A stretch of DNA of 15,137 nt. Origin: Shewanella sp. Its GTDB lineage: Bacteria; Pseudomonadota; Gammaproteobacteria; Enterobacterales; Shewanellaceae. This document shows positions 339-14,230 of this stretch, one piece after another (position 1 is the stretch's first letter; each line of letters begins with the position of its first letter). The position numbers were made by a program, and so were the translations under genes. Under the pieces are notes generated by a model that was not told the origin of the DNA, made no database searches, and saw only the letters and a list, made by a program, of their open reading frames with translations. The stretch covers positions 1-15,137 of the forward strand of contig SDWK01000929.1 of the NCBI GenBank assembly GCA_004195335.1. The letters run 5' to 3'.

Positions 339-3158
339 TTAGCCACGGGTACACTCTTCGAGCAGATAGGCCAGATGACGATAAGGGATGCCACTATGTT
401 GAGTCAGACCGACTTCACACATACGGTTAGCGTAATAGCCCTCCTTCACATCGACCGGGATCAACTTCTTAATGTTACGCAGTGCACTGGCATTGATCTC
501 TGGCTTATAGAGGCCTTTTTCACCCGCATAACCACAGCATTCGATCCCTGCAGGACGAATAACCTGATTACAACAGGCATCCGCGATTGCGGTCATTTTA
601 GGTTCAACCTTCATGGTTCTGGCGCTACAACCAAGATGCAATGCCGCGTGTGATTTCTTCTTAATGGTCAGTTTAGGCAACAATTTGTCATGCATAAACT
701 CAACCAGATCCACTATCTCTACCTTCTCAGCCAAGCTTGCATCACCAGCTAAGGTTCGCTTGGTACATGAGAGCGCATCGATGATCACTGGGAACTTTCC
801 GCCTTGTGTCATGGCTGAAACAGCCTGAATCAACTCGAGACGTTTTGCATCGGCATTTTTAAAGTCGCCCTTAGACTCCCACATCTGACCACAGCACAGA
901 TCGCGGGTCTTAGGTGGAGTGATCACGTTATAGCCAGCTCGCTCCAATAGCGTCACTACAACTTCCGGTAGTGGTCGCTTATCGGTATCAACAGGCGTAG
1001 GTCCGAAAGTACGTCCACCACAGGCTGGGAAGTAAACCACAGTTTCCTGTCCAGGCTTAGGTGCAGAAACCTTCGGAAGTTTGCCGCCTATAGGGAAAGA
1101 AGGATTCCAGTAAGGCACTTCACCGCTGATAAGTCGTCCAGCCTTCATCATAGTGCCGGTAATACCGTCGCCGGTGATCTTATGGATCACACCCAAGATA
1201 TCAAAACCAGTACTGATCACGCCATTAACCGCGCCGAAGTGATTAGCCTGAAAATCGAGGAACTTTTGCTGACCACTGCTGATGGATGGGGTTCTAAGTT
1301 TACGTACCAATTGACCCATTTTATTATCGACCGGGCAGGCTATGGTACACAGCTGACAGGCGGCGCAAGTATCAATAACGTCGTACTTGGCGGCAGCGCG
1401 CATGGTATCGGCGGCCTGCTGATCACCACTTTGCTCCAAACGAGCAATCTCACGCAATGTAGCAATACGCTGACGCGGAGTGAAGTTCAGCGCTGAGGTC
1501 GGACAGGTCTTCTCACAGAAACCACACTCAAGACATTTATCGACAAAGTCATCGACTACCGGACAGGGTTTGATGTCCTTGACGTGAATTTTTGGATCAT
1601 CGTTTAAGATGACTCCTGGATTCAGGATCCCCTGAGGATCAAATAGCTGCTTGATGCTCTTCATCAGAGCGTAAGCATCCGATCCCCACTCCATCTCAAC
1701 GTAGGGGGCTACGGCGCGACCAGTACCGTGCTCGGCTTTCATCGAGCCGTCGTACTTGTTGATCACCATTTCAGCAATTTCGTCCATAAAGGCATGGAAA
1801 TTGTCGATATCATCCTGAGTCGAGAAGGCTGGCGTGATGATGAAGTGGAAATTACCGGCTAATGCGTGCCCATAGATGCAGCCTTCGGGATAACCGAATT
1901 TGTGCATTAGCGCAGTAATATCACTCGCGGCGGTGGCTAGGTGTTCAAGCTTAAACGCTACATCTTCGATAATAACCGACGTGCCTTTGGGACGCTCACC
2001 AGCAACGATGGGGAACAGCCCCTTACGCATGGCCCAATACTCGCCATATACGGCAGCATCACAGGTAAAGCTTATCGGACGAAGAAAATCAAATCCTTCA
2101 AGCTTAGTGATCACATCCTTGGTATAGGCATCCAAGGTATCGGCATCGTCGGCACGGGATTCGATCAGCAAAATAGCTGACAGAGGTGGCAACTCGGACA
2201 ACCATTCTGGCATCCCAGGTTTGCCGGTAACGGCCTTGATGGATGGCCAGTCGAGCAGTTCGGCTGCCGCAACACTTTCGCCATTGATCAATGGGATCGA
2301 ACGAGCCGCATCTTCCATATTGTGGAAAACGGCTAGGGCCGAAGCCTTAAATTTGGCTTCATTGACCGTGTGGTAGGTTACTTCGTTGATGAAGGCCAAT
2401 GTGCCTTCCATACCAACCATCAGGTGATTAATGATGTCAAATGGGTCGTTGAAATCGATCAACGCGTTGATGCCGTAGCCTGTAGTGTTCTTGATGGAGT
2501 ATTTTTTGCGTATTCTGTCGGCAAGCACAATGTTGTGGCGCGTCTTATGAGCCAGTTGATGCACTCCCTCAAGCATGTCACCATGAGATTTGGCGAATGC
2601 GACCTTAGATTTTTTACAACCCGTGTCGAGCTCGGTACCATCTGCGAACAATAGCTTGGCCGACGCTATGGTCTGGTAACTGTTTTGTGCAGTACCACAG
2701 CACATACCCGAGGCATTGTTGGCGACAATCCCGCCAATCATTGCCGAGGCAATCGTCGCCGGATCTGGGCCAATTTTACGGTTAAGCGGCGCTAACACAG
2801 CGTTGGCATCGGAACCTATGACGGCCGAGCCAAGGGTGATTTGTCTAGCATCGTCACTGACTTCAATCTTTCTGAAGCCATCATGGCCCAGAATAAGTAA
2901 AATACCTTCACCAAGTGCTTGACCGGCCAAGCTGGTGCCTGCCGCGCGGAAAGTCACAGGGGCATTATGCTCACGGGCAACAGCTAAGGTACGCTTAACT
3001 TCTTCCATGTTTTCGGCATGAACAACGACTTCAGGAACAATTCTGAAATAGCTGGCGTCGGTTGACCATGCGAAGCGACGAACATACTCATCCGTCACAG
3101 GTTTGTCACCGAGTTGCTTACGTAAATCGCTGACTACAGCTTTATAATTTATCGACAT
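339..3158 (-). CDS. dld: FAD/4Fe-4S D-lactate dehydrogenase (Dld-II type)
   Basis: This is a membrane-associated respiratory enzyme that oxidises D-lactate to pyruvate and passes electrons towards the quinone pool. Taking ATG at 3158 gives 939 residues. It opens with a PCMH/VAO-type FAD-binding domain (about residues 40-260, RAAGTSLAGQALGEG near 81-95, GMEGTLAFI near 249) and an FAD-linked oxidase C-terminal domain (to about 520, KAEHGTGRA near 474). Two ferredoxin-type clusters follow (CxxCxxCxxxC at C542-C552 and C598-C608). Last come two cysteine-rich CCG domains (FPACGG about 713, CCG about 755, LGC about 844, CCG about 874). Length and domain order fit the Shewanella Dld-II family. An upstream in-frame TTG at 3194 would add 12 residues but lies inside an intercistronic hairpin; ATG 3158 has an AGAG about 9 bases upstream. 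It follows lldP by 79 bases and is probably cotranscribed with it. Confidence 0.93.
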   Translation of the reverse strand: MSINYKAVVSDLRKQLGDKPVTDEYVRRFAWSTDASYFRIVPEVVVHAENMEEVKRTLAVAREHNAPVTFRAAGTSLAGQALGEGILLILGHDGFRKIEVSDDARQITLGSAVIGSDANAVLAPLNRKIGPDPATIASAMIGGIVANNASGMCCGTAQNSYQTIASAKLLFADGTELDTGCKKSKVAFAKSHGDMLEGVHQLAHKTRHNIVLADRIRKKYSIKNTTGYGINALIDFNDPFDIINHLMVGMEGTLAFINEVTYHTVNEAKFKASALAVFHNMEDAARSIPLINGESVAAAELLDWPSIKAVTGKPGMPEWLSELPPLSAILLIESRADDADTLDAYTKDVITKLEGFDFLRPISFTCDAAVYGEYWAMRKGLFPIVAGERPKGTSVIIEDVAFKLEHLATAASDITALMHKFGYPEGCIYGHALAGNFHFIITPAFSTQDDIDNFHAFMDEIAEMVINKYDGSMKAEHGTGRAVAPYVEMEWGSDAYALMKSIKQLFDPQGILNPGVILNDDPKIHVKDIKPCPVVDDFVDKCLECGFCEKTCPTSALNFTPRQRIATLREIARLEQSGDQQAADTMRAAAKYDVIDTCAACQLCTIACPVDNKMGQLVRKLRTPSISSGQQKFLDFQANHFGAVNGVISTGFDILGVIHKITGDGITGTMMKAGRLISGEVPYWNPSFPIGGKLPKVSAPKPGQETVVYFPACGGRTFGPTPVDTDKRPLPEVVVTLLERAGYNVITPPKTRDLCCGQMWESKGDFKNADAKRLELIQAVSAMTQGGKFPVIIDALSCTKRTLAGDASLAEKVEIVDLVEFMHDKLLPKLTIKKKSHAALHLGCSARTMKVEPKMTAIADACCNQVIRPAGIECCGYAGEKGLYKPEINASALRNIKKLIPVDVKEGYYANRMCEVGLTQHSGIPYRHLAYLLEECTRG

Positions 3159-3191
3159 TTGACTTATCTCTTTACTCGCAATGATTAAGAG

Positions 3192-3222
3192 CAATCAGAG
3201 CCGGGATATGTGGCTCTGATTG
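3192..3222 (-). other. Intercistronic hairpin between lldP and dld
   Basis: A perfect 11-bp inverted repeat (3192-3202 with 3212-3222, caatcagagcc / ggctctgattg) has a 9-base loop. It lies 16 bases after the lldP stop and about 34 bases before the dld ATG. The minus strand after it reads ctcttaatc, not a T tract, so it is more likely an mRNA-stability or partial-attenuation element than a full terminator. Confidence 0.7.
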
Positions 3223-3237
3223 ATTGAGTATTACTTT

Positions 3238-4881
3238 TTAGAAACCGCCCCAGAGGAAGGCTATGGTGCCCGCAATCATGGCGTAGGCCAAGGCTACCGG
3301 CATAGTCTTACGAATAATTTCTGATTCTCTTCCCGCCATACCTACTACGGTCGCGGCGGCAACGACGTTCATCACACACATCATGTTACCAGCGTTGGCA
3401 CCAATGCCCTGCAGAGCCAGTACCATAGCGTGGTTCATGCCAATGCTGTCGGCGACGCTATACTGCAGGCCGGAGAACATCATATTAGAGAAAGTGGCGC
3501 TGCCTGAAAGGAAGGCACCGAAGATACCAACGACAGGGGCAACCCAAGACCATACCGCACCCATACTGCCAGCCAAGGTATCGGCTAGGGCGACAGGCAT
3601 TGAAGCCAAACCTGACTCGTTGGTACCTGAGTTCAAGAAAATCTTCACCATAGGCACAGAAGCACCTAAAGAGATAATAGTCGGCACCATAGAACGGCAC
3701 GATACCGTAATAGACTCACTGATGGCTTTCTTGTTCATTCTGAACAAGAAGAAACCCAAGATACATACGGCGACGAAGAAGGCGCCCGGTGCATACAGGG
3801 TCTTGAATCCGGCACTCAGCTCGGTACCCATCAGACCTGTCCACTTGACATTGAAGCTCAGCAACCATGATTTTAGCGGGCCAATAACACGAGATAGCAC
3901 CAACAAGGCCGCCATGATGATATAGGGAGTCCAGGCGGCAATTTGTGAGAACTTAGCAGTGGAAGCTACTTTAGACTCTTTCTGGCCGTCGTTTTCGGCA
4001 AAATCATTCCAGGGAGTCTTAGGCAACATAATGCCTTTTTTAGCAACTGGGATAACGATAGCCATACCAACCAGTGCACCAATAACCGATGGGAACTCGG
4101 GGCCAGCGACGAAGTTGATGATCCAGGCCGGAACTGTGAATGCCAGTCCGGCAAACAGAGCAAACTTCCAGATGGCAAAGCCTTCGGTGAATGACTTGTT
4201 GCGACCGAAGAAACCTGTCAGCAAGGACACCATGACCAGAGGAATTAGGGTACCAGTAACAAGATCTATGGTGATCATATGCATAGCGATAAACTGCGCA
4301 TAATCGGCAAAGCTGCCACCATGCTGGGCAATCTGTTCGGCTGCCATGTTGACGCCACCAGAAGTCAGACCCTGTTCCATACCAAACAATACCGGTAGAC
4401 CAATTGCACCGAAAGATACGGACGCAGAGTCAGCAATCAGGGCAACAACCGCGGCGGCAATAGGGGGAATACCCAATAACACCAGCAAAGGTGCGCCGAT
4501 GGCAGCGGGTGTACCGAAGCCGGCACTACCTTCGATGAATGAGCCAAACAACCAACAGATGATGATCACCTGCACACGGGCATCGGCACTGATATTGGTG
4601 AAACCTGCGCGAATGGTATCCATCGCGCCTGAATACTTCAGGGTATTAAGCAGGAACACAGCACCAAAGATAATACTCAATGGTGTCAATGCAGCAAGCA
4701 ATCCTTCTACAACGGATGCGGCCAAAAAGGTCGTATCCATTTGCCAGACAAACACGGCAGCTAGGCCGGTTAAGATTGCAGAAATGGGCATTGCCCGTGA
4801 TGCGGGCATCTTCAGTAATACTAAAAATAGCATTACACTGATCACCGGCGTTAGACTTGCGAGTAGTTGAATAAAGGTCAT
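3238..4881 (-). CDS. lldP: Lactate permease, LctP/LldP family
   Basis: This is an inner-membrane transporter importing lactate (family members also take glycolate), most likely with protons. The 547 residues are hydrophobic throughout, with some 12-14 membrane segments. Family-typical stretches include [20 protein letters not shown] near residue 113, [15 protein letters not shown] near 150, and [21 protein letters not shown] near 495. The length matches the usual 530-570. ATG at 4881 is preceded by AGAGG with a 5-base spacer. It is the first gene of an operon with dld, which supports lactate as substrate. The upstream region is duplicated in front of the porin at 9035, which suggests shared control. 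Confidence 0.95.
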
Positions 4882-4976
4882 GCTTGCCTCTTATTATCTT
4901 ATTTTGTTACTTAGAGTTATTTCTAGATTTTAGCGGAACTTTTGACTCGTTGGTTCTTGTTGTTTGTCTTGAGCTG

Positions 4977-4989
4977 TGACCTAAGGTCA
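4977..4989. promoter_or_regulatory. Perfect palindrome TGACCTAAGGTCA before lldP
   Basis: This 13-bp dyad (TGACCT, central A, AGGTCA) lies about 96 bases upstream of the lldP ATG, within repeat copy A. The equivalent site in copy B (9090-9102, TGACCTAGGATCA) keeps the TGACC start and TCA end but has an imperfect right arm. The core CCTAAGG recurs at 5065-5071 in the identical block. It is probably an operator; the binding protein is not identifiable from sequence. Confidence 0.55.
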
Positions 4990-5044
4990 GATGCCCGCCA
5001 AATGTATTTTTTATCTGGGGCTAATCATATGGCTTTGTGTGTGT

Positions 5045-5097
5045 TTTTTTTATCCGTGTTTGCACCTAAGGCTACTAAGGGTTTACACGTAGAAACG
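5045..5097 (-). promoter_or_regulatory. 53-bp block identical upstream of lldP and the porin gene (copy A)
   Basis: These 53 bases are identical at 9158-9210 although flanking DNA has diverged. The block holds a direct repeat of CTAAGG with a 9-base period (5066-5071 and 5075-5080). It ends on the minus strand in GATAAAAAAA, which could supply a weak -10 (GATAAA), though no convincing -35 lies at the right spacing. The likely role is a promoter core or activator-binding region; which of the two is uncertain. Confidence 0.55.
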
Positions 5098-5243
5098 CCA
5101 GTTTACCCATGTTCATGATTTCTATTTTTAGGGGAGTGTATCAGGTAATCGTCGCTTTTAACCAGACAATACAGTCGGTTACAAGGTTGTTACTCGCGTG
5201 TAGGTTAACTCGTTGCAGGAAATAATTGTAGGGGGCTGGCAAT

Positions 5244-5257
5244 ATGATGCAGATCAA
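5244..5257. promoter_or_regulatory. FNR/EtrA-like site, copy A
   Basis: ATGATGCAGATCAA matches the FNR consensus TTGAT-N4-ATCAA at 9 of 10 defined positions. It lies about 363 bases before the lldP ATG. The same 9-of-10 match is kept in copy B, where two of the four spacer-side bases around it may vary, so the site persists while neighbouring DNA drifts. EtrA is the Shewanella FNR homologue. The distance to the start codon implies a long leader or action from afar. Confidence 0.45.
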
Positions 5258-5347
5258 CTTTGTAACGATTAACCGTGAAATGTGTTATCGATGAGTGTCG
5301 AGAGACGGTCGTAAGATCGGTAAATGACACTGAAGCAGGAGCGGAAA

Positions 5348-5431
5348 ATGAACATGACCATTTATTCCGATTGTAAACCTGCATTTTTGTTGTGCTTTAT
5401 GGTGAATACAGCTACATATTGTTATTCTTGA
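5348..5431 (+). CDS. Possible 27-residue leader peptide or small protein
   Basis: ATG at 5348 follows AGGAG (5337-5341) with a 6-base spacer, an unusually good ribosome-binding site for an otherwise gene-free region. The frame runs 27 codons (MNMTIYSDCK..., ending TYCYS) with cysteines at 9, 16 and 25 and a short hydrophobic middle. It points towards the kinase gene 174 bases downstream. The related stretch in copy B (from 9431) has a shorter, different reading frame and no such ribosome site, which argues against a conserved peptide. It may be chance. Confidence 0.2.
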   Translation: MNMTIYSDCKPAFLLCFMVNTATYCYS

Positions 5432-5530
5432 TTAAAGTCAGTGCCTGGTTGCGGTGCCGTTGCCAAGGTGAATTATTGCCGTATCTTTGATTTAGCCCCA
5501 CTATTAATGGGTATTTGTTACGACTCTGTG

Positions 5531-5545
5531 GTTAATTAACTGTTA
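5531..5545 (+). promoter_or_regulatory. ArcA-box-like site before the kinase gene
   Basis: GTTAATTAACTGTTA matches the published 15-base ArcA box (GTTAATTAAATGTTA) at 14 of 15 positions. It directly abuts a -10-like TATAAA at 5547-5552, so bound ArcA would occlude this promoter and repress the kinase operon when oxygen is low. The -35 region is poor. The consensus match is seen; the regulatory effect is inferred. Confidence 0.5.
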
Positions 5546-5604
5546 ATATAAACCCCGTTTTGCGGGAGAGTGCGTTCCCGGATATTGAGGAGTAGTTATC
5601 AGCG

Positions 5605-7005
5605 ATGAATATTAACCATAAGTTACAGCTAATCACCGTACTTCCACTCATTATATCTCTGATACTGGTGTTGTTTGTGACTCAAATGCAGTATAGAGAT
5701 CTCTCCCAGCATGTGGTCGACGTTTATCGGCAGAGTATTATCGATCACCGCAAAGAAGAGCTGAAAAATTATCTGGCGATCGCCAATGTGGCTATCAAGC
5801 ATCTCCATCAAAATAAGAACGATGACAAGCAACAAACCCAACAAGAAGTTAAGTCCATGCTGGCCGAAATGCGCTTCGGTAAAAACGGATACTTCTTCGC
5901 CTACGATCTAGATGGCAATAGCCTGGTCTTACCCGATCAGGAGTGGCGGGTCGGTAAAAATTGGCTGGACTTGGCTGACGACAACGGAGTCCACTTTATC
6001 CAAGAGTTAATCTCAGGGGCGAGGAAAGGCGGCGGTTATCTCACTTACCTATTCAACCAGCCCTCCAATGACGGTCAACTGGGGCAAAAACTCGCCTATG
6101 CCGAGGTATTGGGACAGTGGGAGTGGATGTTTGGTACCGGCGTTTATATTGATGATATCGATGAGGAGGCGGCATTATTGAGCACCGCTATCAGTCGCCA
6201 TATCCGCAACACCTCCCTCATGACTCTGACGATAGGTATCTTAGCGGTCAGCGCCGTGTTTATAGGCGGCATTTTTATGCGTGTGGGTGAGAAGCGACTC
6301 GCAAATGCTAAGCTCAGAACGCTCAACGAGCGGATTTATCAGACCCAGGAAGAGGAATGTAAGCGGGTTTCAAGAGAGTTGCACGATGGGGTTAGCCAAA
6401 CTATTGCCGCGGCCCTGTTTGCTATGGAAACCGCCCAATTGAAACAGGAATATGGCGGCGATTCTAGTCCGGAACTGGAGAAGTCGATTACACTGACGCG
6501 GCAGATTATGCTCGATATCCGTAATATCTCGCATCAGTTACATCCGGCCATCCTCGAGGATTATGGGCTGGGAGCGGCGTTAATAGAGTTGGGCAGGGAG
6601 TTTTCGTTGCGTACAGGTATCGAGGTCAAGGTGCAGCGATTATCGGTGCGCAAGATCCTGTCAACCGAGCTTAGCTGCGCGCTTTACCGCATTGTACAGG
6701 AATCGCTAACCAATATTGAACGTCACTCGGGGGCTAAAAATGTGCTGATTTCGATCGGACTGACTCCGGGATGGCTGACCTTGGAAGTTCATGATGATGG
6801 TCTAGGGTTTAACTATGAATGCTATGAGAAAAAATCTACCCCGTTTGAGGGAATAGGCCTGAGGAATATGAAGGAAAGAGTGAATTTTTATAATGGTGAG
6901 CTCAAGGTGGAGTCATCTATTGGCAAAGGAGTGACGCTGGTGGCACGTATTCCCCAGAGTGAGTTGCGTTATCGAGCCGATTCTGCCACTGGGGGACTGT
7001 TATGA
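5605..7005 (+). CDS. Cache-domain sensor histidine kinase (NarX/LuxR-partner type)
   Basis: This is an inner-membrane two-component sensor of 466 residues. Segments in order are TM1 (about 9-28), a periplasmic single-Cache domain (about 30-190, with GYFFAYDLDG at 96-105 and WEWMFGTGVYIDDID at 172-186), TM2 (about 204-226), a short coiled linker with no HAMP or PAS, and a HisKA_3 box with the phosphoacceptor at H260 in RELHDGVSQ. The ATPase follows with an N box around E366/N370 (VQESLTNIERH), DDGLGF at 397-402 and GIGLRNM from 416. sCache_2 domains often bind small carboxylates such as pyruvate, lactate or propionate; the ligand here is inferred from context. A GAGGAG lies about 12 bases before the ATG. 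The stop overlaps the regulator's start (ATGA). Confidence 0.9.
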   Translation: MNINHKLQLITVLPLIISLILVLFVTQMQYRDLSQHVVDVYRQSIIDHRKEELKNYLAIANVAIKHLHQNKNDDKQQTQQEVKSMLAEMRFGKNGYFFAYDLDGNSLVLPDQEWRVGKNWLDLADDNGVHFIQELISGARKGGGYLTYLFNQPSNDGQLGQKLAYAEVLGQWEWMFGTGVYIDDIDEEAALLSTAISRHIRNTSLMTLTIGILAVSAVFIGGIFMRVGEKRLANAKLRTLNERIYQTQEEECKRVSRELHDGVSQTIAAALFAMETAQLKQEYGGDSSPELEKSITLTRQIMLDIRNISHQLHPAILEDYGLGAALIELGREFSLRTGIEVKVQRLSVRKILSTELSCALYRIVQESLTNIERHSGAKNVLISIGLTPGWLTLEVHDDGLGFNYECYEKKSTPFEGIGLRNMKERVNFYNGELKVESSIGKGVTLVARIPQSELRYRADSATGGLL

Positions 7006-7622
7006 TCCGTGTGCTTCTGGTGGACGATCACCCCCTGTTTCGCGAAGGGTTACGGCATCGTCTGAGCCTTGACAGTGACATTGAGGTGCAAGCAGAAGCC
7101 GACAATGGTCTTCAGGCACTGGCAATCCTCAAGGATATTCCGATCGATCTGGTGTTGACGGATATTAATATGCCGCAAATGGATGGCATGTATCTGCTTG
7201 AGCTGATTAAAGAGCAGGAGATGTCATGCAAGGTGGTGATGTTGAGCATGCATGACAACAGAGAATATATTATGGCGGCAATGCGCTACGGTGCTGATGG
7301 CTATATTCTCAAGGATGTACCCGGTAAGGAACTGATTGAAGCCATAAAAAAAGTTGCCGCCGGCAAGCGCTATTTCAGTGCCGAGGTCACAGACACCTTG
7401 TCGCAGGAGCTCGCCAGTGGCAAGCAAGTCTTGGTAACCCAGCGGGAGCAGTTGGTGTTACGGTTGATATCGCTGGGGATGAACAATAAACGCATTGCGC
7501 TGGAGATGAATGTCAGTGTACGCACGGTCGAGACCCACAAGCGTAATATCAAACAGAAACTAGCGATAGACAGTACGGCCGGTCTGGTGCGTTATGCCAT
7601 CGATCATGGCTTGGATCGGTAA
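7002..7622 (+). CDS. LuxR/NarL-family response regulator
   Basis: This 206-residue cytoplasmic transcription factor is cognate to the overlapping kinase (4-base ATGA overlap, GGGGGA just upstream as ribosome site). The receiver domain spans residues 1-120 with acidic D8/D9, phosphoacceptor D54 in LVLTDINMPQMDG, S82 and K104, all the expected switch positions. A LuxR-type helix-turn-helix fills about 142-206 (SLGMNNKRIALEMNVSVRTVETHK). Phosphorylation should drive dimerisation and DNA binding. Targets cannot be read from the protein; the duplicated control regions flanking this gene pair are the obvious candidates. Confidence 0.93.
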   Translation: MIRVLLVDDHPLFREGLRHRLSLDSDIEVQAEADNGLQALAILKDIPIDLVLTDINMPQMDGMYLLELIKEQEMSCKVVMLSMHDNREYIMAAMRYGADGYILKDVPGKELIEAIKKVAAGKRYFSAEVTDTLSQELASGKQVLVTQREQLVLRLISLGMNNKRIALEMNVSVRTVETHKRNIKQKLAIDSTAGLVRYAIDHGLDR

Positions 7623-7668
7623 CACTATTCACGCTGTATTTTCAGGGCGTTGCCATATTGAAAAAAAA

Positions 7669-7718
7669 TACCCGAAGCGGGGTCATGCTTCGGGTAAAAT
7701 CATGGCAAACTAGCCATG
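7669..7718 (-). terminator. Tandem hairpin terminators, minus strand
   Basis: Two hairpins lie back to back. One is at 7701-7718 (catggc / gccatg, 6-base loop); the other is at 7669-7696 (10-bp stem tacccgaagc / gcttcgggta, 8-base loop). The second is followed on the minus strand by eight T (complement of 7661-7668). The T tract shows they terminate minus-strand transcription, not the response regulator. They lie about 250 bases past the porin stop, and 15 bases past a small minus-strand ORF. Confidence 0.75.
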
Positions 7719-7732
7719 TTGTGGGAATTAAG

Positions 7733-7864
7733 TTAGGGGTGTTTTTTGCCCTCATGTTTATGGTCAGAGGGACAAGGCCAACCATCCCACAGGATGACCT
7801 TTTGGAGCTTATTCTCTAGGGGCAGATGGATGACTGCCAGTTTGAGTTCTTTCTTTCCCGCCAT
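7733..7864 (-). CDS. Doubtful small ORF downstream of the porin
   Basis: This 43-residue frame begins MAGKKELKLAVIHLPLENK and ends SDHKHEGKKHP. An in-frame ATG at 7939 would make it 68 residues. I do not recognise it. In favour: its stop falls 15 bases before a tandem terminator on the same strand, and the porin has its own hairpin closer by, so something seems to be transcribed here. Against: neither start has a visible ribosome-binding site, and the longer start lies inside the porin's terminator hairpin. The alternatives are a 3'-derived small RNA or noncoding DNA. Confidence 0.25.
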   Translation of the reverse strand: MAGKKELKLAVIHLPLENKLQKVILWDGWPCPSDHKHEGKKHP

Positions 7865-7925
7865 GCTTGCTTGATTGATTGATATCAGGGCAAGTACGCG
7901 GATTTTCAGGTCAACAGGCTCTAGG

Positions 7926-7956
7926 AAAACCGGCGACATAAAATTGATTATGCCGC
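7926..7956 (-). terminator. Probable terminator of the porin gene
   Basis: A 9-bp stem (7933-7941 with 7948-7956, one G-U pair as RNA) with a 6-base loop begins 8 bases after the porin stop. On the minus strand it is followed by CGGTTTTCC. The T tract is short and offset, so termination may be partial. Confidence 0.5.
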
Positions 7957-7964
7957 GCAGTTGT

Positions 7965-9035
7965 TTAGAGTACGTACTTGGCCGAAAGCTGGACGTAATC
8001 AGAGTCAGCAGTGTCAGTGGCAGAGATATCCGCATCATAGTTGCCGAATTCAACGCCCACGCTTAACTGCTTGGTAAGCTGCTGGATCAGGTTGACGCCG
8101 TAGTGATTGCGATCTGAGTCAGCACTCACGCCATTGAAATCTTCAACTTCAGAGTGGCCGTAGTAAACGGTAGAGCGCAAGTCATCAGTCCAGAAGTGGC
8201 GATAAGCGACGGTGTAGGCTTGCGTTGCCAGCAGATCACCACTGCCATCAGCATTAACCTTATCGCCCGCGTTGTGGCCAGGTGAAATATAACGACCTGC
8301 AGCGCCCGCGTTGTAAGCGAAGCGGAAGTCATCTTTACCAAAGGTATTGATTTTACCACTTATGCTGTAAGCCAACTGAGTGCCGTCGGCATGACCGGCC
8401 ACACCGTTGTCATCGAAGGTGCGAGCCAGCGCGGCAACCGCCACCTGACCAAAATCACCTTTGTAAGTGTAACGCGCCACGGCATCGGGGATACTTTGGT
8501 TGGCATCGGTAGCATTGGCTGGGTTTTCTAATGCCAGTTCCAGACCACCATTAGTATAACGGATCTGGGTTTGACGAATGAATACCTGACCTACGTGCGC
8601 TCCACCAAAGTCCAGTGCCTCGGCGATAGAAGCCAGTGGCATAAAGGTTGACCAAGTCTGGCCGACTTTCCAGTTCTTGTAAGAAATAAAGGCATGACGC
8701 ATACGCGGTGTGTATGAGTTAGAAACCAATGCATTACCGCCACCACCGAAGAAATCATACTCGAGGAATCCAGTCACTTCGCCATGTGTGAACTTGACAT
8801 TGAAGCGCGATTCTTTGGCCTGGAGGCTGGTTTGATTGGTATCTGGCGCGCTGGTACTGGTTCCAATCCAATAGTCACGATAAGCCTGATCGCCACTGAC
8901 ATTACGCAGGTCGGCTTTGAAGTAGCCGCCGAAGGTCAACTTCGAACTATCGTCGATTTGGACTTCATAGCCAGCGAAAGAAGATGCTGAGAAAAATGCA
9001 GCTACCACTAACGCAGTTTTAGTTATTCTATTCAT
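7965..9035 (-). CDS. DcaP-like outer-membrane porin
   Basis: This 356-residue beta-barrel has a clear signal peptide (MNRITKTALVVAAFFSASSFA, predicted cut after A21) and mature start GYEVQIDDSSKLTFGGYFKA. The segment WKVGQTWSTFMPL...LDFGGAHVGQVFIRQTQIRYT is typical of DcaP-like porins, trimeric channels that in Acinetobacter pass dicarboxylic acids. It lacks the N-terminal coiled coil of the founding member. Alternating strands run to the C-terminus, which ends AKYVL rather than the usual aromatic residue. ATG at 9035 is chosen (AAAAGG with a 7-base spacer) over the adjacent TTG at 9038. Its upstream region duplicates that of lldP, so it is probably induced with the lactate operon and may admit small carboxylates; the substrate is inferred. 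Confidence 0.88.
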   Translation of the reverse strand: MNRITKTALVVAAFFSASSFAGYEVQIDDSSKLTFGGYFKADLRNVSGDQAYRDYWIGTSTSAPDTNQTSLQAKESRFNVKFTHGEVTGFLEYDFFGGGGNALVSNSYTPRMRHAFISYKNWKVGQTWSTFMPLASIAEALDFGGAHVGQVFIRQTQIRYTNGGLELALENPANATDANQSIPDAVARYTYKGDFGQVAVAALARTFDDNGVAGHADGTQLAYSISGKINTFGKDDFRFAYNAGAAGRYISPGHNAGDKVNADGSGDLLATQAYTVAYRHFWTDDLRSTVYYGHSEVEDFNGVSADSDRNHYGVNLIQQLTKQLSVGVEFGNYDADISATDTADSDYVQLSAKYVL

Positions 9036-9157
9036 CAAGGTACCTTTTTTGGATTTGTTGATTAGTTGGTTGTCGTTTGTCTTGAGCGGTGACCTAGGAT
9101 CAGATGCTCGGCAAACTTATGGTTTATCTGGGGCTAACCATATGGCTTTATAGGTGC

Positions 9158-9210
9158 TTTTTTTATCCGTGTTTGCACCTAAGGCTACTAAGGGTTTACA
9201 CGTAGAAACG
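9158..9210 (-). promoter_or_regulatory. 53-bp block identical upstream of lldP and the porin gene (copy B)
   Basis: Identical to 5045-5097, including the two CTAAGG repeats (9179-9184 and 9188-9193). It lies about 123-175 bases upstream of the porin ATG, against about 164-216 for lldP. This difference in distance argues for a promoter or operator rather than a structure tied to the start codon. Confidence 0.55.
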
Positions 9211-9357
9211 TCGATTCGCCCGTGTTCAGGCTTGCGATTTTTGGGGGAATGGAATCGGATAAATGTTATTTTTAACGCAGGAATACAGATGGTTACGAAT
9301 TTGTTGCCCGTGTGTGAGTTAGCTAGTTGCAAGTAATAATTGTAGGCGGCTGGTGAC

Positions 9358-9371
9358 ATGATGTAGATCAA
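9358..9371. promoter_or_regulatory. FNR/EtrA-like site, copy B
   Basis: ATGATGTAGATCAA is a 9-of-10 match to TTGAT-N4-ATCAA, about 323 bases upstream of the porin start. The only difference from copy A within the 14-mer is in the non-consensus spacer. Confidence 0.45.
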
Positions 9372-9627
9372 CTTTGTAACGATTAACCATGAAATGTGTT
9401 AACGATGAGTGCCGACAAAGTCGGATACGCATGAATGTGATGACGATAACAGCCGGATTGTTACCCATATAAAGAAATGTGAAACCAAGGTAACAAAAGC
9501 TAAACGGACTGGTATGAAGGAGGTTAAATTCATTGCTTTTAAGCTTCTTTTATAAGTAGGTCAATTAACTTACTGATAATTTGATTAATGAACTGTAATT
9601 CAAATCCCTACAGATAAAGCCTGAGTA

Positions 9628-10317
9628 TTAAACTAAGAAGATCGAAAAGAACGGGGCACCAAGCACCATAGCAACACCAGTAAAGATCATCGTTAAACTG
9701 GCAACCACTCCCTGCTCCGGTCCAAACTCACTGGCTTTTGCGGCTCCGGCACCGTGAGCGGCGGCTCCTAATGCTACGCCTATTGCTAAAGGAGAGCTTA
9801 TTTTCGCTAGCTTGAACAAAGGCTCACACACTAACATGCCGATAATTCCGGTGAGCAGTACCAACATCGCGGTCAACTCAGGTACCCCGCCAAATGCAGA
9901 CGTGGCTTCCATTGCAAATGGCATCGACACAGAGCGCACTAACGTACTGTGAGACAACTCTGGCGGCAGTGAGAATATCTTAGTCAATCCCCATGATGAG
10001 AAGAGCCCTAACAGCAGACCTGTCACCACCCCAAGTCCAATCGTTAACGGATAGCTAAAGATCAATTTTCGCTCTCTATATATAGGCACAGAGAATGCGA
10101 TGGTCGCGGGAGCTAACAGGGCCACTAGCCAATGGGTATATTCAAAATATGCTGGGAGAGGAATTTTCAGACTAATGACAAAAATGACAATAACTACTGG
10201 CACCATAAAGATGGGGGCTAACCACCATACCCTCTTTTTTCGGTACAGCTGTTTAATCAAAAAGTAGCACGAGAGTGTAAAAGCCAGGCTTATCACCGCT
10301 AACATTGACTGGGACAT
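9628..10317 (-). CDS. lrgB: LrgB/CidB (YohK) family membrane protein
   Basis: This 229-residue inner-membrane protein has about six hydrophobic segments. The family signatures are LLAPATIAFSVPIY near residue 67 and GVALGAAAHGAGAAKA near 179. LrgB homologues act with LrgA. They were first described as murein-hydrolase or holin-like modulators, and related pairs in Bacillus subtilis (PftAB) and Streptococcus mutans have been shown to carry pyruvate. The start codon directly follows the lrgA stop (TAGATG), so translation is coupled. Closeness to lactate genes favours the transport reading here, as inference. Confidence 0.9.
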   Translation of the reverse strand: MSQSMLAVISLAFTLSCYFLIKQLYRKKRVWWLAPIFMVPVVIVIFVISLKIPLPAYFEYTHWLVALLAPATIAFSVPIYRERKLIFSYPLTIGLGVVTGLLLGLFSSWGLTKIFSLPPELSHSTLVRSVSMPFAMEATSAFGGVPELTAMLVLLTGIIGMLVCEPLFKLAKISSPLAIGVALGAAAHGAGAAKASEFGPEQGVVASLTMIFTGVAMVLGAPFFSIFLV

Positions 10318-10752
10318 CTATATTACCCCTATCGATTTTTCTGCATTGAGGCGCTTAATATTCATCTTAGTTTCAAACCTAAATACTCTATCGACCACAA
10401 ACCCCGTACCGAGTAGCACACAAACGCTACCAATCACTAATGTGAGTATCAAAGGAACCGAATATTGCTCGAAAAGGCTTTCATACTTAATAATTGAGAT
10501 AACAGGAGGAATAAAAAACAGCAATAACTCACCGGTTAACCATCTTGCTCCAAGCTTGACCGACTTTTCCGGTACCAGTTTTAACCCCATTAACAACAAC
10601 AGGATAGCAAGTCCCAATACACTGCCTGGAATAGGGAGTTCGAAATAAACCGCGACTAGATCCATTCCCCAGGCTAACAGACAAAACAGCCCGATTTGGC
10701 TCAGTAATTGAAGAGCCCCATAACACTTTTTAGTACGTTCAGCTGTCAACAA
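10318..10752 (-). CDS. lrgA: LrgA/CidA (YohJ) family membrane protein
   Basis: This 144-residue protein has four membrane segments and the family core ELPIPGSVLGLAILLLLMGLK, followed by GARWLTGELLLFFIPPVISI. It is the partner of LrgB in the next frame. No ATG exists before residue 30, inside the first conserved segment, so the start must be non-ATG. TTG at 10752 has AGG with a 7-base spacer and is the best choice; the adjacent TTG at 10749 is possible. A TTG start suggests low expression. It is divergent from a LysR regulator 106 bases away, the usual arrangement for control of cid/lrg-type operons. Confidence 0.88.
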   Translation of the reverse strand: MLTAERTKKCYGALQLLSQIGLFCLLAWGMDLVAVYFELPIPGSVLGLAILLLLMGLKLVPEKSVKLGARWLTGELLLFFIPPVISIIKYESLFEQYSVPLILTLVIGSVCVLLGTGFVVDRVFRFETKMNIKRLNAEKSIGVI

Positions 10753-10777
10753 AGTAAAACCTAAATTTGAAATCTAT

Positions 10778-10797
10778 GCGATAAACACAGTTTACGC
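10778..10797. promoter_or_regulatory. Candidate LysR operator between lrgA and the regulator gene
   Basis: The centre TAAAC-ACA-GTTTA (10782-10794) is a perfect palindrome of the T-N11-A form preferred by LysR proteins. It is extended by GCG/CGC on the outside, with one unpaired A. It sits 25-45 bases upstream of the lrgA TTG and 61-81 before the LysR start, well placed to control both. Which protein binds is inferred from divergence. Confidence 0.5.
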
Positions 10798-10858
10798 TTG
10801 CTAAAAAGATAAAAAAAATGAATATTAAGCATAGAAAGCATAACCAAAAGTAATACAG

Positions 10859-11818
10859 ATGGATCTAAGAGTGATCAGTTACTTCATCGATATCGTTGAT
10901 TCGGGCGGCTTTGCAAAAGCCTCTGAAAAAATCCATATCACTCAACCCGCACTTTCTAAGGCGATTATTCAACTTGAACACGAGTTGGACTTAACCCTGC
11001 TCGAGCGAGGTAAACGCGGTACCCAACTCAAGCTGACATCTGCTGGTGAAGTGGTATATCGACACGGTGTCGAACTCTTAGCTGGAAGGCATAGGATGCT
11101 CAATGAGCTGGCCTCTCAGCGGGATTTAACCTCGGGAGAACTGAGGCTAGGTCTGGCCCCGTTGGGCAGCGCCGAGCTTTTTGCCCCCGTGATTGCCAAG
11201 TTCAAAGACAGTTACCCTAAGATTGAGATGAGTCTATTCGTTCGAGGAGGCGTCGAGCAAACCCTCGCGCTTCAAAAAGGAGAGATTGAACTGGCAACGG
11301 GTATCATTTCATTCGATAAAGAGTTTGACGGGATCAGGATACATGAAGATCCTATGGTCGTCGTTTTACCCAAGAATCATCCGCTGGCTCATGAAGCATC
11401 GCTTCAACTTAGCCAAATATCCGACATGGCTCAAATCATGTTCGAGCATGATTTTGCCCTTTATGGTCAGGTCTTTGCTGCCTGTGAAAAAGCGGGCTTT
11501 ACTCCCAAAAACATCACCCGTGTGAGTCACCCTGATTTTGGCATCGCCCTGGTCGCAGCCGGAGCCGGAACTATGGTGCTCCCAAAACTAATAGCCGAAC
11601 GACACAGTGTGAGCGGCGTCGTCTACGTCCCTTTGAAAAGCTCAGAGCTGTATTGGGAATTATCACTCTATTGGAGAAGAGGAAAGCAACTTTCATTTGC
11701 CGCACAAGCCATGCTTGATATTGTAAAAAACACGTTAAAACCACCATTCACTCCAGAGCAGACGATAAACATCGGCTCACTGAAAGAGATAATAATAAGC
11801 CCTCAAAAAAGAGAATAG
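10859..11818 (+). CDS. LysR-family transcriptional regulator
   Basis: The N-terminal winged helix-turn-helix occupies residues 1-60 (FAKASEKIHITQPALSKAIIQLE, then LLERGKRGTQLKLTSAGEVV). A substrate-binding domain of the periplasmic-binding-protein fold follows from about 92 (LRLGLAPLGSAELFAPVIAKF) to about 290. The length (319) is typical. It is divergent from lrgAB and probably controls it, perhaps in response to an organic acid such as pyruvate or acetate, as CidR-type regulators do. The ribosome site is weak. The gene converges on the YedI-family gene with a 40-base gap and no strong terminator. Confidence 0.9.
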   Translation: MDLRVISYFIDIVDSGGFAKASEKIHITQPALSKAIIQLEHELDLTLLERGKRGTQLKLTSAGEVVYRHGVELLAGRHRMLNELASQRDLTSGELRLGLAPLGSAELFAPVIAKFKDSYPKIEMSLFVRGGVEQTLALQKGEIELATGIISFDKEFDGIRIHEDPMVVVLPKNHPLAHEASLQLSQISDMAQIMFEHDFALYGQVFAACEKAGFTPKNITRVSHPDFGIALVAAGAGTMVLPKLIAERHSVSGVVYVPLKSSELYWELSLYWRRGKQLSFAAQAMLDIVKNTLKPPFTPEQTINIGSLKEIIISPQKRE

Positions 11819-13029: not shown

Positions 13030-13914
13030 ATGAAATCTCTCGATCTACTCCGCTCTTTATACTCTATGGCTGCCGTCGTTGAAGCAAGAGATCCCTATAC
13101 TGGTGGTCATTGCTGGCGCGTCGCTCAACTCAGTGAACTGGTAGCAATTGAGATGAATCTGGATGAGAGAACCCGTCTGCGTATAGGTTTAGCCGGTTTC
13201 TTACACGACTTAGGAAAAGTGGGCGTTCCCGATGCCATCCTGAATAAAACGGGTAAGCTCACCGATGACGAATATGAAGTCATTAAAACTCATCCGAGTA
13301 TCGCAGCCGAAGTGCTCAAGCATCACCCCTTGGGAGATTTGGCGATTAACGGCGCCCTCGCCCACCATGAAAGACCCGATGGTTTGGGTTATCCAAACGG
13401 TCTAACCGAGGCCCAAATACACTTAGATGCGAGCATTATTTCGGTTACCGATGCCTTCGATGCCATGACCTCTCACAGACCCTACCGTAATGGAATGGGA
13501 GTCGATAAGGCCATAGGTATATTGCAGGAGAACAGTGGCTCGCAGTTCAATAGCAATGTGGTTAAACATTTCTGTGCCATCGACAGGCACGATATCGATG
13601 CCATCGTGTTACATAGCGATCATCATACCCCCATGCAGGTCTGCCCTAATTGTGGCCCGGTTGTCATCGTCTACAAAGAGATGGAACAGGGTGATAAGAC
13701 CTGCTGCCGTAATTGTGGCGGAGAGTTCAGCCTGCTCATCGAGCAGGGGGTAAGAAGCCTCAAGCCAACCGGAGGAGCGGCCAGCCCCAAGCAGTTACAG
13801 CCAACAGCCGATCATGAACTAATAAGCCGTCTCGCTCATCGCGCCCTGCCTCTGCTCAAAAAGGATGTAACCTGGTGGCAGAAACTCGTAGGCACCGCAG
13901 GTAGCGCAAGTTAG
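13030..13914 (+). CDS. HD-GYP phosphodiesterase with C-terminal zinc ribbon
   Basis: This 294-residue cytoplasmic protein has an HD-GYP domain over residues 1-190. It shows H27 (GGHCWRV), the catalytic H59-D60 (FLHDLGKVGVP), HHERPDGLGYP at 112-122 and DAFDAMTSHRPYR from 141. Every canonical motif is present, so it should hydrolyse cyclic di-GMP or a related dinucleotide. There is no receiver or other sensor at the N-terminus. After the domain comes a CPNC (205-208) and CRNC (226-229) pair that should form a zinc ribbon, then a tail ending KLVGTAGSAS. AAGGA with a 6-base spacer precedes the ATG. The 3' end is repeated downstream. Confidence 0.9.
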   Translation: MKSLDLLRSLYSMAAVVEARDPYTGGHCWRVAQLSELVAIEMNLDERTRLRIGLAGFLHDLGKVGVPDAILNKTGKLTDDEYEVIKTHPSIAAEVLKHHPLGDLAINGALAHHERPDGLGYPNGLTEAQIHLDASIISVTDAFDAMTSHRPYRNGMGVDKAIGILQENSGSQFNSNVVKHFCAIDRHDIDAIVLHSDHHTPMQVCPNCGPVVIVYKEMEQGDKTCCRNCGGEFSLLIEQGVRSLKPTGGAASPKQLQPTADHELISRLAHRALPLLKKDVTWWQKLVGTAGSAS

Positions 13915-14230
13915 TCAATCAAGAAGCGGTTACAGCACATCATGATGTTGATTACCCAGCTCGATCATTATGCACAGACACAGCTTAAAAGGAACGTAAT
14001 ATGATGGCAGAAACTCGTTGGCACCGCGGGTAGCGCAAGTTAGCTTGAAAATGGGGCGTTATCAACAGAGCCGTAGCGACTACAGTCAGGCATGACTGTT
14101 GATTTCCCACCTCGCTCATGAACCCTGCTATTTCTGCAACAGGTTTCAAGCTTGTGGCAGAAGTGACTTCAAACCACAGGGGCTCTGGATAGCTAGAAAA
14201 TGGGAGGTTAACACTACAGTTTCAACGAAG
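13876..14230 (+). repeat. Degenerate tandem repeats including the HD-GYP gene's 3' end
   Basis: Three related units begin at 13876, 14005 and 14155. The last 39 bases of the HD-GYP gene (13876-13914) recur at 14005-14043 with two changes, both at third codon positions and both silent. The following stretches also match: 13931-13957 with 14081-14108, and 14041-14056 with 14190-14205. The natural unit is about 150 bp, with unit 1 shorter by about 21. Unit 3 is partial. Apart from this and the rpiA promoter I see nothing in the 369-base gap. Confidence 0.75.

Follow-up and report, generated by a model that had tools for sequence, protein, structure and literature searches.

Gene order and the repeated control region

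The stretch of Shewanella sp. DNA analysed here, hereafter the window (15,137 nt; contig SDWK01000929.1 of assembly GCA_004195335.1), holds two copies of a control region, one before the lactate permease gene lldP and one before an outer-membrane porin gene. We read the repeat, with a probability of roughly three in four, as two ancient promoter modules belonging to a single regulon, in which a phosphorylated response regulator would activate both promoters and switch them on together. From low to high coordinates the genes run dld and lldP (minus strand), a sensor kinase and a response regulator (plus), the porin gene, lrgB and lrgA (minus) and a CidR-like LysR gene (plus), so that the two-component pair stands between the two repeat-bearing genes (Table 1). 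The name dld-II follows PMC4468914, where it is used for the lldP neighbour in S. oneidensis MR-1 (papers given by PMC number are cited here from partial text). On its sequence the host sits near marine species, and its response regulator is 99% identical to the S. gelidimarina counterpart.

An earlier note, made from the sequence alone, had described a colinear repeat of about 350 bp with two fully identical blocks of 53 and 24 bp, and both descriptions hold. Self-comparison of the window gives 85% identity over 182 nt (4957-5138 against 9070-9251) and 77% over 177 nt (5125-5301 against 9239-9415), with a single-base indel between the copies since the offset shifts from 4113 to 4114. The longest exact runs common to the two are 53 bp (5045-5097) and 24 bp (5251-5274), followed by runs of 15, 13, 12 and 12 bp, against a longest shared run of 11 in 50 mononucleotide shuffles. 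Both copies lie upstream of minus-strand genes, lldP starting at 4881 and the porin gene with TTG at 9038 or ATG at 9035. The genome search for further copies that the note had proposed, run with BLAST at E≤0.001, gave 82% identity over ~360 nt and returned from the host's own genome these two places only.

Block B, read on the minus strand, contains a 41-bp element, lying inside the exact 53-bp run and identical in the two copies: CTACGTGT-AA-ACCCTTAG-N5-TTAGGTGC-AA-ACACGGAT. It consists of two tandem 8-2-8 inverted repeats of the NarL type, with 2-bp centres lying 23 bp apart, and its length and register are the same in all 35 elements of our alignment. Site 1 has a mean arm match of 0.78, against 0.13-0.35 when shifted, as expected of a NarL-type inverted repeat, and is perfectly palindromic in S. 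gelidii. The motif TAnnnT follows exactly 22 nt past the element in 37 of 39 cases, both window copies included; once the window and the seven named loci in its clade are set aside, the count is 22 of 24. Both counts include orthologous and hence non-independent elements; at no other offset from 8 to 44 does the motif exceed 21%. Inspection by eye reveals no -35 next to the predicted -10, and we infer an activator that adjoins the -10 without a visible -35, the site centres lying some 66 and 43 bp upstream of the predicted start.

The distal block A carries an FNR-like site matching TTGATN4ATCAA at 9 of 10 bases. CRP was considered as the common factor and rejected, block A being closer to FNR (9/10) than to CRP (7/10). 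In MR-1, SO1522 is lower in an etrA mutant, yet an EtrA site is predicted only for the other permease (PMC3078092). A coding leader peptide was likewise rejected: the 84-residue open reading frame over the porin copy does not stay open, since, judged by eye, a stop breaks it in the lldP copy as well as in some relatives.

Table 1. Features of the locus, with their positions in the window and the basis of each assignment
Feature	Position	Strand	Basis
dld-II type FAD/FeS D-lactate dehydrogenase, downstream of lldP	339..3194	-	open reading frame; GlcD/YdiJ-like below cut-offs
lldP, LctP-family lactate permease, two-component-linked paralogue, target gene 1	3238..4881	-	TIGR00795 337 bits, cut-off 341; own clade in lldP tree
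Weak candidate leader hairpin, lldP	4962..5003	-	ViennaRNA folds in relatives
Predicted -10 of lldP, TATGAT	5024..5029	-	fixed 22-nt offset after element
41-bp element before lldP	5052..5092	-	site 1 5075-5092, site 2 5052-5069
Distal conserved block A, lldP copy	5244..5273	-	FNR-like TTGATN4ATCAt at 5244-5257
Sensor histidine kinase, MctS-like	5605..7005	+	Pfam sCache_2 + HisKA_3 + HATPase_c; NF052443 419 bits, cut-off 700
MctR-like response regulator of the NarL/FixJ family, putative activator of both promoters	7002..7622	+	Response_reg + GerE; NF052445 242 bits, cut-off 300
DcaP-type outer-membrane porin, target gene 2	7965..9038	-	PF19577 41.3 bits, cut-off 27, partial profile; 6eus DcaP-like E 1.8e-6
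Weak candidate leader hairpin, porin	9075..9116	-	ViennaRNA folds in relatives
Predicted -10 of porin, TATGGT	9137..9142	-	fixed 22-nt offset after element
41-bp element before porin, identical to the lldP one	9165..9205	-	site 1 9188-9205, site 2 9165-9182
Distal conserved block A, porin copy	9358..9387	-	FNR-like site 9358-9371

Recurrence of the element and its candidate regulator

Could a single programme govern a porin and the genes of lactate use, as the earlier note had proposed? Related elements recur before porins in Colwellia, Thalassotalea and Parashewanella, before lldP/dld in Colwellia, and before TRAP genes in some Shewanella (L029, a Shewanella locus, and L121 of S. gelidii), with weaker elements in two more distant gammaproteobacteria and weaker TRAP targets in L044 and L045; this recurrence therefore makes one porin and lactate programme a well-supported reading of the sequences. 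A profile of 21 Shewanella copies gave weak but well-placed matches in Thalassotalea, Colwellia and Parashewanella (E 2e-5 to ~2.6), part of them to the palindrome's other strand, as well as chance-level matches in unrelated loci (E 0.17 to 5). When a 41-mer matrix was run over the window and loci L021-L100, no match fell between 14 and 33 bits, and all matches precede lldP, dld, a porin or a TRAP solute-binding gene, most of them belonging to the training set and nine places lying outside it. Conversely, a matrix built from 19 non-Shewanella elements places the window's two sites jointly first at 24.8 bits. The third match (9.8) is an overlap in a shifted position, and 54 unrelated loci (731 kb) score 4.0 bits at most. 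The 19 were first found via the Shewanella profile, and the test is thus not fully independent.

The regulator combines a receiver with a GerE/LuxR helix-turn-helix domain (PF00072 106 bits, PF00196 58 bits, both above cut-off), which places it in the NarL/FixJ family, and its nearest solved chain is NarL (1a04); the nearest solved structures to the kinase's sensor domain are 2qhk and 4exo. We posit that the sCache kinase would sense a small periplasmic monocarboxylate, either lactate or something closely related (pyruvate, for instance), and would phosphorylate the adjoining NarL-type regulator, two dimers of which would occupy the two tandem 8-2-8 sites beside the -10 and activate transcription. 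The porin would pass the acid through the outer membrane and LldP through the inner membrane, and Dld would oxidise it, a scheme which suggests a small organic acid as the substrate of a DcaP-type porin. What the genome comparison itself shows is the element, its constant distance to the -10, which genes it stands before and that it occurs together with the regulator. As an observation apart, two Shewanella genomes have near the pair a second kinase gene, 63-66% identical to that of the window (L027 4692-6071, L029 1393-2787).

Whether the signal is lactate itself is a separate matter. The same circuit might respond instead to pyruvate, to another C2-C3 acid, or to redox state via the FNR-like site, a tentative possibility that deserves to be taken seriously and that overlaps with our preferred explanation. 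Indeed, the nearest solved sensor, 4exo, has pyruvate in its pocket, and the ligands of PscD are C2-C3 acids (PMC5062169), whilst the rhizobial MctS/R controls a pyruvate/lactate/alanine permease (PMC9100948). Of the residues named in PMC5062169, the window kinase, by our reading of the alignment, seems to retain those equivalent to Tyr90 and Tyr143, together with Tyr70, an additional one in 4exo, and has a leucine where the ligand-binding relatives have His103; the ligand is therefore not transferable from those relatives, a point that weighs against our reading and on the side of this alternative. Set against this, the neighbours of the two-component pair in other genera are dld, lldP, LutB/LldF and an LldD-like enzyme, lactate genes that would favour lactate as the signal. 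The TRAP binding protein of S. gelidii matched 44 solved chains, among them the lactate-binding TTHA0766 (2zzv, E 9e-22), with better matches to 2hzk (sorbitol/mannitol-binding) and 7ug8 (ketoacid-binding).

A second alternative accepts the shared element as real, and supposes that some other regulator binds it, with the neighbouring two-component pair a mere passenger. We consider this unlikely. Across 116 genomes, the host's own included, a genome-wide model found 17 strong sites in nine genomes (most of them in the training set via identical named genomes), eight of the sites before lldP, eight before porin and one before a TRAP solute-binding gene, together with three weak partial matches (G075, G061, G013); the nine are exactly the genomes with a regulator orthologue of at least 80% identity. 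The TRAP site, in G017, lies on another contig than the regulator and outside the training set. Moreover, the symmetry of the element fits dimers of the NarL type, with which goes a joint conservation of element and recognition helix: the stretch RTVETHKRNIKQKL hardly varies among the regulators of element-bearing loci, including those of 56-57% identity, and none of the unrelated regulators compared has it. A paralogous two-component pair (regulator 48% identical) also has a weaker single site of the same kind before its own TRAP gene. What speaks for a passenger is that one genome, G176, keeps the element without the regulator, and that one locus, L036, has the regulator without the element nearby. 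On the paralogous pair itself, its single 8-2-8 sites (16.3 and 14.4 bits) lie at L191 4585-4607 and L192 4544-4563 before the TRAP solute-binding gene, and a related porin is found in the same cluster.

These two cases are among the observations that weigh against our reading of one regulator acting on one regulon. In a search of 394 genomes of the order, one, G176, has a strong element and no such regulator at E≤1e-25; L036 encodes a regulator (75%) with the conserved helix and has no element within 16.6 kb; and in G075, again with a regulator (75%), the match before the porin covers positions 1-25 of the 41 and goes no further. The order-wide search scored few candidates per genome and missed this partial site, so that its counts are lower bounds. 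Site 2 is the weaker palindrome (arm match 0.52, against 0.13-0.33 shifted), and both elements that lack the fixed -10 come from L044 and L045, the genomes farthest removed. In the host's own genome the model gave, besides the two strong sites, one near-chance match and one weak single palindrome before a nupC-like gene, which is at odds with a lactate regulon. To these must be added the partial dependence of the non-Shewanella matrix, and the consideration that, within Shewanella, a single phylogenetic event accounts for part of both the neighbourhood and the co-occurrence. Two of these sites merit description in their own right: the orphan element of G176 (L193 1501-1539) lies behind lutBC and may be a relic, as a transposase-like open reading frame follows it, and the palindrome of the host's contig C1 (L103 1501-1522; 17.8 bits, E 0.02) lies ~100 bp before the nupC-like gene.

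Age of the copies and the probable change of the lldP promoter

The earlier note had seen in the identical blocks the mark of selection on regulatory sites and not of a recent copy, and had proposed aligning both copies with their orthologues; that alignment bears the claim out. Twelve of 118 genomes match the region, seven of them, the host included, with two copies ~4 kb apart; after 10 duplicates were removed from 31 aligned upstream regions, 21 were kept, and the nine Shewanella genomes compared carry both copies. Block A has a mean identity of 0.874 within and 0.869 across genomes, and block B of 0.881 and 0.872, whereas the stretch between them stands at 0.532 and 0.496. The earlier note had named uniform conservation along the copies as a ground for refutation; conservation is blockwise, the variance along the 18 copies, a measure of its clustering, being reached by none of 2000 column shuffles. 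In the tree, the nine porin copies separate from the nine lldP copies with a support of 0.973, the inner nodes being weaker in places (0.42-0.61). The duplication is therefore older than these genomes, and the blocks have been kept by selection.

It is hence very improbable that the likeness stems from a recent duplication or gene conversion devoid of regulatory meaning. Admittedly, none of the other eight pairs is as alike as the window's (0.80 overall, 1.00 over the element), and the within-genome mean slightly exceeds that across genomes (0.664 against 0.646 overall). However, the copies split by gene in the tree, the within- and across-genome difference over blocks A and B is below 0.01, and the window's porin copy is as close to the S. 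canadensis lldP copy (0.82) as to the window's own lldP copy (0.80); gene conversion was rejected on the copy tree and the cross-genome identity. Equally improbable is that the conserved block works as RNA in a structured leader, for whilst a hairpin past the predicted -10 folds in many leaders (ViennaRNA), the palindromes as they stand could not close an RNA hairpin given their 2-nt centre, Rfam gave four matches up to E 1 over 4700-9700 and none at gathering score, and covariation lay within that of shuffles (116 of 500 shuffles; two pairs changed on both sides; 11 of 19 leaders; set without G011_lldP, there identical to G062_lldP, G011_porin, G019_porin, G067_lldP and both copies each of G054 and c952).

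If the repeat is indeed a pair of old promoter modules of one regulon, how did lldP come by its copy? Within the genus, 53 of 69 genomes gave lldP matches, 56 in total, of which 30 were examined: the element is present at all eight loci linked to the two-component pair and at none of the 22 others. Likewise, it precedes the porin in 8/8 orthologues and in 0/22 others (30 loci of a longer list). In the tree, the linked lldP genes group together (support 0.90), and their sister is that of S. gelidii (0.995). Three genomes (G004, G019, G054) carry a second lldP-dld operon elsewhere, its LldP 87-88% identical and clustering with the lldP of genomes that lack the two-component pair. Within 420 bp, a CRP-like site with no fewer than 9 of 10 matching bases is found in 25/25 non-linked lldP promoters (21 others, the three second copies and S. 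gelidii; 25 of 48 non-linked matches) and in 0/8 linked ones, the best match to TGTGAN6TCACA before the window's lldP being 7/10 within 420 bp; FNR-like sites show the reverse, at 8/8 linked and 2/25 non-linked promoters. S. gelidii has the element before its porin and TRAP genes, and the top match before its lldP (8.1 bits, E 0.24) is not significant.

The simplest order of events inferred from these patterns would place the porin promoter first, with lldP-dld then taking a copy: the paralogue beside the two-component genes would have gained the ~350-bp porin promoter and lost its canonical CRP-type promoter. On balance we favour the wider view that a duplicated lldP-dld acquired some 350 bp of porin control region and left CRP control for a substrate-sensing two-component system; the element would define a regulon, one that our searches did not find described, in which outer-membrane permeability is coupled to lactate uptake and oxidation in several marine genera. 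Considering that G004, G019 and G054 keep both a CRP-type and a rewired operon, the step can be dissected in one cell.

Two further observations concern the rest of the window. The lrgA/lrgB and CidR-like LysR genes at 9628-11818 adjoin the porin in some relatives, and the 41-bp element has no match there. At 13822-13914 and 13951-14043 lies a direct repeat of 93 nt (76%), in which the end of an HD-GYP open reading frame is duplicated just downstream.

Relation to known regulatory systems

Among the open-literature matches listed, titles and the beginnings of abstracts describe neither the element nor this pair in Shewanella; most subscription papers lie outside that set. MctP and LldP belong to different transporter families. 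The MctS/MctR system of Rhizobium resembles ours in setting a Cache-type kinase and a response regulator over the monocarboxylate permease gene mctP (PMC9100948). The regulon proposed here differs in adding porin, Dld and TRAP genes, and membership of MctSR itself was rejected on the curated NCBIfam cut-offs of NF052443 and NF052445, of which the pair falls short (Table 1). Control of a neighbouring monocarboxylate permease, a trait of that system, would fit the position of the element before the adjacent lldP.

The half-site of NarL is TACyymT. That of our element is CTAmGTGT, it comes in two tandem sites 23 bp apart, and no nitrate genes are involved. Shared with the 7-2-7 sites of NarL/NarP in E. 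coli are inverted arms 2 bp apart, there heptamers bound by a dimer (PMC4549865), and a regulator whose nearest solved relative is NarL. The LldR* regulon, in turn, is a control of lactate utilisation inferred by comparative genomics in the same genus; in the main text of that study, as far as available, lldP, porin and two-component are absent as terms (PMC3223726).

A further comparison is with S. oneidensis MR-1, which has the same lldP-dld pair, and whose lldP behaves alike on D- and L-lactate (PMC5432575). Experimental work on that lldP describes control by CRP, bound at -70 to -49 (PMC5432575), in contrast to the window promoter, which is without a CRP-like site. The locus offers a natural before-and-after case of probable regulatory rewiring through promoter copying. 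For lactate use in marine Shewanella and Colwellia it also provides a precise operator together with a candidate regulator, and targets that can be put to the test.

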